From: Actinomycetota bacterium
GTDB taxonomy: Bacteria; Actinomycetota; Actinomycetes; Nanopelagicales; Nanopelagicaceae
Assembly (NCBI GenBank): GCA_016870365.1
Contig: VGBW01000005.1
Location: 1-64,000, forward strand
DNA length: 64,000 bases
Reading direction: 5' to 3'
Part shown: piece by piece, positions 53,541-60,380 of the stretch
How positions within the stretch are numbered: the first letter of the stretch is position 1
How the letters are laid out: each line of letters begins with the position of its first letter
Translations under genes and position numbers: made by a program
Notes under the pieces: model-generated
Told to the model about the DNA's origin: nothing
The model's input: the letters and a program-made list of their open reading frames with translations, nothing else
Databases searched by the model: none

Positions 53541-56174
<2,634 letters not shown>

Positions 56175-56735
56175 TTAGTTTTGGTAGTCCTCGGTCTGGC
56201 TATGTGTCGATGAGGACGCTAGTCCAGTCTCTTGCAAAGTCCGTTCAGCCAGAGTCGTATCGCCAATTTCTAGTGCAATGAGACCTGACTGAACCAACTC
56301 TTTGATGCCAAAGCTTGATAACTCCTTTAGTAGCGCCGCAATCTCGGCGCTATTTCCTATCGCCTCAATAGTAAGGCTGGAGTTAGCCTGATTAACAATT
56401 GCCCCGCGATACTTAGCAATTACAGCTTCAACCTTTGGGCGGTTATTGGGGTCACTATTTACCTTGACCATCAGAAGCTCTCTTTGATGAGAGTTCCTAC
56501 CTTCCATCTCTTGGATGCCGATAACGTTAACTAGTTTAAATAGCTGAGCGCTCACCTGATCTAGAGCGTGTCCCTCAAGGTTTAGAACAATGGTCATTCG
56601 AGAGATCTCAGGGCTTTCAGTTGGTCCCACCGCAAGTGAATGGATGTTGTATCCCCGACGAGAAAACAGTGATGCCACTCGGGCTAGAACACCTGGGCTG
56701 TTTTCAACCAGGACAGAGAGAATGTGTTGGGCCAT
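56175..56735 (-). CDS. ilvN: Acetolactate synthase small (regulatory) subunit
   Basis: ACT-domain protein binding Val for feedback control of IlvB. 186 residues. HILSVLVENSPGVLARVASLFSRRGYNI at the start, ERELMLVKV-type segment QRELLMVKVNSD. 2 nt after ilvB. Confidence 0.95.
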   Translation of the reverse strand: MAQHILSVLVENSPGVLARVASLFSRRGYNIHSLAVGPTESPEISRMTIVLNLEGHALDQVSAQLFKLVNVIGIQEMEGRNSHQRELLMVKVNSDPNNRPKVEAVIAKYRGAIVNQANSSLTIEAIGNSAEIAALLKELSSFGIKELVQSGLIALEIGDTTLAERTLQETGLASSSTHSQTEDYQN

Positions 56736-56737
56736 GG

Positions 56738-58477
56738 CTATAACTCCTGTGAGTCCCAGTCAGGCGCCATCTCTTTGGCAATCAAAATATCATCATTAGA
56801 GGTTCCAGCAGCCACCATTGGCCAGACCATGGCATCTCGATGAACGCTAAAGTCAACAACCACCGGAGCATCATTAATAGCATTTGCTTCCTTAATTATC
56901 TTGTCGACATCACCCTTTGATTCGCAGCGAAGGCCAACGCATCCCATGGCTTCGGCAAGTTTTGCAAAATCAGGGATCCTCTTAGAGTGAAGGTCAGTAT
57001 TCGAATAACGCTCTCTATAAAAGAGTGCCTGCCATTGACGAACCATTCCTAAGCTCTCATTGTTGATGACAGCCACTTTGATCGGAATGTCATTTAGCGC
57101 GCAAGTTACTAACTCTTGATTTGTCATCTGGAAACAACCATCACCATCAATTGCCCAAACTGGAGTGTCAGGAGCACCAACTTTTGCGCCCATCGCAGCT
57201 GGAACGGCGTATCCCATCGTGCCAAGGCCTCCGGAGTTGAGCCAGGTTCGAGGTTTTTCAAATTTAACAAATTGCGATGCCCACATCTGATGTTGACCAA
57301 CTCCTGCAACATAGATCCCATCAGGGCCAGTAATTGCGCCGATTCGCTCAATTACATATTGTGGAGAAAGTGATCCGTCACCAGGCTCGCTATATCCAAG
57401 AGGATATCTCTGGCGCAGCGAATTGATCTGCTTCCACCATTGGCTGATATCGGCTCTGTTCCTGGCATACTCAGCCTTAAGAGCAGGAATTAGCGCCCTC
57501 ATGGTTGGGCCAAGATCGCCAATAATCGGCACATCGGCATAACGATTCTTGCCAATCTCTGCAGGATCGATATCTGCATGAATTACCTTGGCGTCAGGGG
57601 CAAATGTAGAGAGTTTTCCAGTTACTCGATCATCAAAGCGAGCACCTAGGGTGATAAGCAAATCTGCTTTCTGAAGTCCAGTTACTGCAGCAACAGTTCC
57701 ATGCATTCCAGGCATACCCAGATGTTGGCTATGGCTATCTGGAAATGCTCCACGGGCCATAAGGGTTGTGACAACAGGGGCTCCCACTAACTCTGCCAAC
57801 TGCAAGAGCTCTTTAGCAGCATTAGCCTTTATTACTCCTCCGCCAATATAGAAAATGGGTTTACTTGCTTGGGCTATGAGTGATGCTGCTTCACGAATTG
57901 CCTGAGCATCAGGCTCTGCATGAGGGTGATAACCCAGAAGATTCAATTTCTTGGGATAGTTGTAAATTGTCATCTTCTGTAGAGCATCCTTAGCAATATC
58001 AACTAGAACTGGCCCTGGTCGACCCGAGGAGGCAATATAGAAAGCTTCGGCCATGGCCCGCGGAATTTGGGCAGGATCTGTAATTAGATAATTGTGCTTT
58101 GTCACCGGCATGGTGATTCCACGAATGTCGGCCTCTTGAAAGGCATCGGTTCCAATAGCAGCTGAAGGAACTTGGCCAGTTATGGCAACGATAGGAACTG
58201 AATCCATCTGAGCATCAGCAATTGGAGTAACCAAATTTGTTGCCCCAGGCCCAGAGGTTGCAACACAAACTCCGACTCGACCAGTGACCTGGGCATAACC
58301 AGTTGCGGCATGTCCTGCCCCCTGTTCATGGCGGACTAGAATGTGGCGAATCTTTGAATCAAAGATTGGGTCATAGGCAGGGAGAATTGCTCCCCCAGGA
58401 ATACCGAACATGACATCAACGCCAGAATCTTCCAGAGCGTTAACTAGCGCTTGGGCGCCAGTTAGCTCGTTTGCCAT
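56738..58477 (-). CDS. ilvB: Acetolactate synthase large (catalytic) subunit
   Basis: TPP enzyme joining two pyruvates, or pyruvate with 2-oxobutyrate. 579 residues. [15 protein letters not shown], catalytic Glu in [17 protein letters not shown]-binding centre, and TPP motif [15 protein letters not shown]...NN. ATG 58477 has AAGGAGG. First gene of the operon, preceded by an attenuator. Confidence 0.96.
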
Positions 58478-58515
58478 CTTGGTCCTCCTTCCAAAAATAT
58501 CTTGCCCACTAATAG

Positions 58516-58538
58516 AAAAACCCCCAGTTTCCTGAGGG
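58516..58538 (-). terminator. Attenuator terminator before ilvB
   Basis: CCCTCAG-GAAA-CTGGGGG, a 7-bp stem with one G-T wobble and a GAAA tetraloop, followed by five Ts. It lies 39 nt before ilvB and is part of the leader, so premature termination would switch the whole operon off. Confidence 0.88.
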
Positions 58539-58539
58539 T

Positions 58540-58568
58540 GCGCGTGAACTTCGCTTTAGTTCACGCGC
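58540..58568 (-). promoter_or_regulatory. Attenuator stem I in the ilvB leader
   Basis: Perfect 11-bp inverted repeat GCGCGTGAACT/AGTTCACGCGC with a 7-nt loop. It overlaps the leader-peptide stop codon and is followed one nt later by the terminator. A ribosome stalled on the leader would cover its left arm and change folding. An alternative pairing GTTTC...GGTG with CACC...GAAAC could act as antiterminator. Confidence 0.8.
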
Positions 58569-58620
58569 AACGAATCACCACTGAAACAAGAACTGAGACA
58601 GAAGTTGATTTCGCTGACAT
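58561..58620 (-). CDS. ilvB operon leader peptide
   Basis: 19-residue peptide MSAKSTSVSVLVSVVIRCA. Seven of residues 8-16 are branched-chain (five Val, one Leu, one Ile), with GTG GTG ATT just before the stop. This is the hallmark of ribosome-mediated attenuation by branched-chain aminoacyl-tRNA. The ATG is 7 nt after the -10, so the peptide is probably translated from a leaderless mRNA. Attenuation of ilvBNC by such a peptide is established in Corynebacterium. Confidence 0.85.
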   Translation of the reverse strand: MSAKSTSVSVLVSVVIRCA

Positions 58621-58627
58621 GGGAGCA

Positions 58628-58656
58628 AGTATCTCCTGATAGAAAGTATGAGTCAA
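58628..58656 (-). promoter_or_regulatory. ilvB operon promoter
   Basis: TTGACT (58651-58656) and GATACT (58628-58633), 17 nt apart, close to the sigma70/SigA consensus. Predicted transcription start is about 58620-58622, immediately at the leader-peptide ATG. Confidence 0.8.
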
Positions 58657-58703
58657 CCCTCAAGACGGCTATCTCACAATTTGAACGGGGCTTCATCCCC
58701 TCT

Positions 58704-60380
58704 CTAATCGCAGACCGCTCCCTTTGATGCCGAGCCCACCAGCCTCACATACTTGCCTAGCACCCCTGAGGTGTACCTACTGGGTAGCGGCCTAAAGCTT
58801 GCCAGCCTCCTTGCTAACTCACTTTCATCAACTAGCAAATCTAGAGTCCTGGCATTGATATCAATACGAATTCGATCGCCATCTTTAACAAGGGCAATCG
58901 CTCCACCATCAACTGCCTCAGGGGCAACATGCCCCACGCAAAGTCCAGTTGTGCCACCAGAGAATCTGCCATCGGTAATTAGGAGAACAGATTTTCCAAG
59001 ACCAGCACCTTTTATGGCGCCAGTAATCATTAACATCTCGCGCATTCCCGGACCACCCTTTGGCCCCTCATAGCGAATCACTACAACATCGCCTGCAGCA
59101 ATCGTTCCATCTCCTAGGGCTTGCATAGCGGCTTGCTCGCGATCAAAGACTCTGGCAGGTCCTTCGAACAAATCAACTCCAACTCCAGCGACCTTTGTCA
59201 CGGCGCCATCTCTAGCAAGTGACCCGCCCAGAATTGTGATTCCACCACTTACGCCCATCGGCCTCTTAACCGCTCTTAAGATCTCACCATCAGGATCTGG
59301 TGGATTAATGTCAGCTAAGTTCTCAGCCATAGTTTTTCCGGTAACGGTTAGGCAATCTCCATGAAGCAGACCAGCATCAAGCAGAGCCTTTAATACCACC
59401 GGAATCCCCCCGACTTTATCAACATCACTCATGACGAATCTGCCGAATGGCTTTAGATCACCAAGGAGTGGGACTCTTGAACCAATTCGATGGAAATCAT
59501 CTAGAGATAGACCGACCTTGGCCTCATGCGCGATTGCTAGTAAGTGAAGAACAGCATTTGTTGATCCACCCAGGGCCATAACTGCGGTAATGGCATTTTC
59601 AAATGCGCCCTTACTTAGAATGTCTCTAGTGGTAATTCCCTGTCTGATCAACCCCACGACCGCGGCGCCGGATTTGACCGCATAGCTATCGCGCCTGCGA
59701 TCAACTGCCGGAGGAGCTGCAGATCCTGGAAGAGATAGACCGATAGCTTCTCCGACTGTGGCCATAGTGTTTGCGGTGTACATCCCGCCGCAGGCACCCT
59801 CGCCCGGACATATTGCCCGCTCAATTCTATCTACCTGCTCTTGAGAAATTAAGCCTCTTGCACACGCTCCAACTGCTTCGAAGGCATCAATGATTGTGAC
59901 ATCCTTCCCATCGACTTGCCCTGGAAGAGTAGAGCCGGCATAAACAAAAACGCTAGCAACATCAAGGCGCGCTGCTGCCATCATCATTCCTGGCAGTGAC
60001 TTATCACAGCCTGCAAAGGTGACCATGCCATCAAGGCACTCTGCCTGCATTACCGTCTCAACCGAATCTGCAATGACCTCCCTTGAAACAAGTGAAAAGT
60101 GCATTCCTTCATGGCCCATAGAGATGCCATCAGAGACTGAGATGGTGCCAAATTGCATGGGAAATCCGCCAGCATCTATAACGCCCTGCTTTGATGCTTT
60201 TGCTAGACGATCTAGCGAGAGATTACATGGAGTAATCTCATTCCAAGAAGATGCAATTCCGATCTGCGGTTTAACCCAATCCTCATCTTTCATACCAACT
60301 GCTCTTAGCATTCCGCGAGCAGGGGCGCGTTCGAGTCCATCAGTCACTAAGCCTGAACGTGGCTTCATTGGATTTGTCAT
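58704..60380 (-). CDS. ilvD: Dihydroxyacid dehydratase
   Basis: Fe-S dehydratase, third step of branched-chain amino acid synthesis. 558 residues. Cluster cysteines in CDKSLPG and [36 protein letters not shown]. It is in the same direction as ilvB, with the ilvB promoter and leader between; it starts 13 nt after gatB. Confidence 0.95.

Follow-up and report, generated by a model that had tools for sequence, protein, structure and literature searches.

Leader attenuators upstream of ilvB were predicted in Corynebacterium, Mycobacterium and Streptomyces by Seliverstov et al. 2005 (PMC1262725). In C. glutamicum, the ilvBNC transcript starts 1 nt from the leader ATG, according to PMC11857589, which cites Morbach 2000. 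The Val codons of this leader are needed for the response, codon changes remove it, and altering the leader ATG lowers expression by 80% (PMC11857589). The C. glutamicum attenuator is the "ilvB-II motif" (PMC10272879). Start-site mapping identifies leaderless ilv leaders in C. diphtheriae (PMC5784534) and in S. lividans, where ilvL encodes the peptide MRTRILVLGKRVG (PMC8079986). For S. coelicolor ilvB, mutating the candidate codons was reported to have no effect (PMC1262725). Attenuation at M. tuberculosis ilvB1NC has been tested with reporters. Changing LVVI to AAAA abolishes the response there, the terminator U-run ends ~126 nt from the transcription start, and the model has a ribosome at the uORF stop masking an antiterminator, while a stalled ribosome lets the antiterminator form (PMC13236596).

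We present a locus with the features of an ilvB leader attenuator, namely a position upstream of ilvB(N)C, Val, Leu and Ile codons near the stop of a short ORF, and an intrinsic terminator. It lies in the window, by which we mean the whole 64-kb stretch of DNA analysed, from a genome of 1.29 Mb whose nearest named IlvB relative is from a Candidatus Nanopelagicales MAG (94% identity). All features described here are on the minus strand, a point left unstated in the original prediction. The gene order is ilvD (58704-60380), the upstream neighbour of the attenuator, then the attenuator itself, ilvB, ilvN (56175-56735), ilvC (55122-56156) and serA, with ilvN and ilvC read from the sequence. The controlled gene, ilvB, encodes the large subunit of acetolactate synthase (56738-58477; relatives are 69-94% identical). 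It starts 143 nt from the leader ATG, directly behind the attenuator, and has an AGGAGG ribosome binding site (58484-58489). From 5' to 3', the elements are a palindrome, the -35, the -10, the leader ATG, the ORF, a stem that we call stem A, the terminator, the AGGAGG and ilvB. Covariance models of Rfam release 15 find no family between 57500 and 59500, only a chance match with E = 7. Scanning both strands of the window for the pattern TTGAY-N16-19-NANNNT-N6/7-RTG followed by an ORF of 8-45 aa identifies two places, of which the ilv leader alone is rich in Val, Leu and Ile and has a strong fold and a T-run.

The promoter consists of a -35 TTGACT (58651-58656) and a -10 GATACT (58628-58633) with a 17-bp spacer, both kept in relatives. 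It has 9 of 12 consensus matches; the 501-bp stretch examined has 2 such sites, versus 0.4 in shuffles. The leader ATG begins at 58620, 7 nt (TGCTCCC) past the -10, just as originally described. For the comparison, we sampled the regions upstream of ilvB in relatives, including genomes from some two dozen families within the class. Fifty loci from ~20 families, the window sequence among them, have a parsable leader. The gap between the -10 and the RTG is 6 or 7 nt in 48 of the 50 readable loci (6 nt in 26, 7 nt in 22), an outcome that is not built in, since the -10 and the start were picked by a score without a gap term, with the search window of 3-14 nt as the limit. An RTG falls at one of these two distances by chance in ~6% of cases. 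Some relatives use a GTG start, with the spacing unchanged. A further set of 80 named loci gave 57 leaders, the others being too short upstream or without a leader by our rule, and every one of the 57 has a gap of 6 or 7 nt. These leaders include Streptomyces, Nocardioides, Kribbella, Blastococcus and others; the S. olivoreticuli peptide is the same as that of S. lividans ilvL, with a gap of 7.

The conserved gap places the predicted transcription start at or beside the A of the leader ATG (58620, within about 2 nt). Such a start goes with the Shine-Dalgarno (SD) counts: an SD core precedes the leader in 6 of the 50 loci versus 10% in shuffles, that is, at chance level, and precedes ilvB in 32 of 38. 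The window sequence is one of those six, with an AGGAG ~12 nt before the leader ATG. A rival explanation starts from this AGGAG, and holds that the attenuator is real but is mainly transcribed from the upstream ilvD region, with the SD directing initiation of the peptide. The location of ilvD agrees with it: the gene has the same orientation, and our search showed no terminator separating its end at 58704 from the ilvL promoter (58656-58704), so ilvD transcripts could run on into the leader and give a leadered mRNA. The AGGAG, however, is lost even in the closest relatives (AGGGG, ACGGA), and what is kept instead is the promoter, along with its distance from the RTG. We regard this rival as very unlikely.

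The leader ORF itself, ilvL (58561-58620), encodes the 19-residue peptide MSAKSTSVSVLVSVVIRCA, of which 7 residues are Val, Leu or Ile, and ends in a TGA (58563-58561) within the 5' arm of stem A. The comparison across Nanopelagicales that the original prediction had proposed finds the peptide conserved there and beyond. Across leaders, Val, Ile and Leu are enriched 4-9 residues before the stop, with peaks at positions 6 and 7 (86% and 76% of leaders). Within the genus, indels in the ORF are of 3 and 12 nt, while one of 1 nt occurs in the loop that follows the stop codon, a pattern expected of a translated ORF. The fixed gap of 6-7 nt, the chance-level occurrence of SD cores and the in-frame indels together make leaderless translation of ilvL very likely.

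Two variations on the peptide are found amongst the relatives. Three loci upstream of ilvB within the family (L023, L025 and L026) have leaders roughly double the normal length, with 24-29 residues, as many as 13 of them Val, Ile or Leu, for example MQKVSTSSSISSAIVISIVGVVVILERAL. In the relatives with high G+C (L035-L054), the leader codons CTC-GTA (Leu-Val) recur with little change at one position. In those genomes GTA is expected to be rare, and it is perhaps a slow codon by design.

The leader transcript folds into three hairpins. The first, H1 (58569-58615), was missed in the original prediction. It lies inside the ORF, with its 5' arm in the first four codons and the end of its 3' arm adjoining stem A; covering the first codons, it could block initiation on a leaderless mRNA. 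The second, stem A (58540-58568), has 11 bp and lies over the stop codon. The third is the terminator, an 8-bp hairpin (58520-58539) that follows stem A with a gap of 0 and is itself followed by a U-run (58516-58539 in all). The fold has -44.1 kcal/mol versus -25.7 +/- 3.3 in shuffles (z = -5.6), and 0 of 200 shuffles are as good. When the genus is aligned, 99.2% of the cells pair, and those changed on both sides outnumber their counterparts in every one of 500 shuffles. Most stem pairs are invariant within the genus, so that the covariation there comes from two pairs, an AU/GC pair in H1 and an AU/UA pair in stem A. Across families, further both-side changes appear at the base of stem A and at the base of the terminator. 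The arrangement is also conserved: stem A and the terminator are 0 nt apart in 39 of 48 loci and never more than 3 nt apart in the 48, and stem A has its 5' arm over the stop codon or right beside it. Promoter, 19-residue peptide, stem over the stop codon and terminator are all where they had been placed. The first reading came from a single sequence, and ilvD lies upstream, so one could regard the arrangement as accidental and the hairpins as an ordinary terminator behind ilvD. Conservation across the whole class and the fold z-score refute a chance arrangement, and we give this explanation practically no weight.

To see how a translating ribosome affects the fold, we blocked the RNA beneath it at each codon in turn and folded the rest. 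The probability of stem A is ~1.0 up to codon 14 (Val14), 0.81 at Val15, 0.16 at Ile16, and 0 from Arg17 to the stop, which places the switch point precisely within V-V-I. At every ribosome position, the terminator has a probability of 0.93-0.98. An extended stem A adds only the pair U52-A82 (numbering from the ATG), taking one base of the terminator, and has -19.6 kcal/mol versus -18.0. With an overlap of 1 nt, equilibrium folding yields no termination switch, and the constancy of the terminator suggests that read-through would have to be kinetic or steric, not a plain equilibrium exchange. When the transcript is folded at successive 3' ends, the extended stem A leads until the 3' arm of the terminator is complete. 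At some loci of other families, the extended stem A reaches 2-6 terminator bases.

Between the leader and the terminator, we found no strong alternative to the terminator. The best antiterminator duplexes there are scattered and inconsistent between species, and several are no stronger than the terminator. We rejected a pairing of AGUUC in the 3' arm of stem A with GAAACU in the terminator loop, which by inspection is lost in the subgroup that has AGAUC. We also rejected a switch between UCAGU in the leader and ACUGA in the terminator, since it would have 5 bp and lie beneath the stalled ribosome.

The original prediction called the stem at the stop codon a pause stem. That name is doubtful, as the stem sits where, in the model for M. 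tuberculosis (PMC13236596), the antiterminator is masked by the ribosome. Stem A is better read as a candidate antiterminator. The locus is best read by the model put forward for M. tuberculosis ilvB1NC, with a read-through step in which, we infer, folded stem A hinders the terminator. Overall, we consider it highly probable that this is a transcription attenuator of ilvBNC controlled by ribosome stalling, in which ilvL is read from a leaderless mRNA. The first transcribed nucleotide would be the A of the leader ATG or a neighbour of it, and ribosomes would initiate without a Shine-Dalgarno. When charged Val, Leu and Ile tRNAs are ample, the ribosome would reach the stop and cover the 5' arm of stem A, leaving the terminator to fold and giving a terminated RNA ~105 nt long. 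When these tRNAs are scarce, the ribosome would stall in VSVLVSVVI with its front just short of stem A, which would then form, and RNA polymerase would enter ilvBNC more often.

A further conserved element is found upstream of the promoter. It is a palindrome TGAGAY-N4-RTCTCA (58661-58676), here the degenerate copy TGAGATAGCCGTCTTG (10/12), 4 bp upstream of the -35. At least 10 of the 12 positions match in 34 of 49 loci, versus 0.24% in shuffles. The spacing to the -35 is usually 4 bp, 4-6 in nearly all loci and sometimes up to 8. The palindrome also stands upstream of ilvB in relatives such as L010, L022 and L159. Perfect copies occur in 29 of 41 family genomes, mostly once, and the reversed control occurs in one genome. 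A regulon did not emerge from other copies of the palindrome, the second copies inspected falling within unrelated genes or close to them. Read against the NdgR/LtbR operator motifs KTYCRSMWYSYGRRM and GTCCAC..GGAC, the palindrome upstream of ilvB is different, and we rejected NdgR/LtbR as its regulator. A literature search on TGAGAY-N4-RTCTCA returned nothing relevant. Judging from its conservation and spacing, the palindrome is a candidate operator, apparently of a regulator with one target per genome, and it points to a not yet named transcription factor.

The palindrome bears on how ilvBNC is controlled. If ilvL were leaderless but without ribosome stalling, read-through would be roughly constant and control would come from a regulator at the palindrome. 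The palindrome's fixed spacing, the failure to find a thermodynamic switch for the terminator, and the ineffective codon mutations in S. coelicolor (PMC1262725) all favor this explanation. It leaves aside the conserved position of the codons, the conserved reading frame and the conserved overlap of stop codon and stem, and codon changes do abolish the response in C. glutamicum (PMC11857589) and in M. tuberculosis (PMC13236596). We judge control by the regulator instead of stalling to be unlikely, and stalling remains our preferred reading. A separate proposal is that the abutting stem antiterminates without sequestering an arm (by a one-base exchange, or by a steric or kinetic effect on the hairpin as it forms at the RNA exit) in combination with TGAGAY-N4-RTCTCA as a widely conserved operator dedicated to a regulator of ilvBNC. 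This we put forward tentatively, as a possibility with rather low odds. The fixed abutment of the hairpins makes the read-through step of actinobacterial ilv attenuation accessible to tests with small constructs.

Like the C. glutamicum attenuator, this one belongs to an ilvBNC operon and has a leader rich in Val, Leu and Ile, three hairpins, and a (here predicted) start at the leader ATG. The C. glutamicum leader is without a ribosome binding site, and here there is no conserved SD. The antiterminator of C. glutamicum overlaps the terminator by ~3 nt, and the extended stem A by 1 nt; the distance from the leader to ilvB is ~292 nt there versus 143 nt here, and the peptide is MTIIRLVVVTARRLP there. 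Like S. lividans ilvL, which precedes ilvBHC, ours is a short Val/Ile/Leu peptide with a terminator behind it and a leaderless start, predicted in our case; the S. lividans leader has 13 residues and high G+C, compared to 19 residues here. Mycobacterial polycysteine uORFs (Canestrari et al. 2020) are reportedly short, leaderless, amino-acid-responsive attenuators, but the amino acid is cysteine and the operon is another one. M. tuberculosis ilvB1NC has branched-chain amino acid codons in a short ORF (LVVI there) and masking by a ribosome at the stop codon, which we predict here too; the attenuator there was tested with reporters and codon mutations.

The original prediction had presented the coupling of a leaderless start to ilv attenuation as a compact design. 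The attenuator leader holds and its leaderless start is very likely by comparison, but the coupling is not new. With leaderless ilv leaders in C. glutamicum, C. diphtheriae and S. lividans, and attenuation tested in M. tuberculosis, this kind of element, leaderless start included, is already known from Corynebacterium and Streptomyces. In the literature searched, no paper joins leaderless initiation with Nanopelagicales, and the locus extends leaderless ilv attenuation to these streamlined freshwater bacteria. The spacing between the -10 and the start codon is fixed over many actinobacterial families, so leaderless initiation looks ancestral for the ilvB leader.
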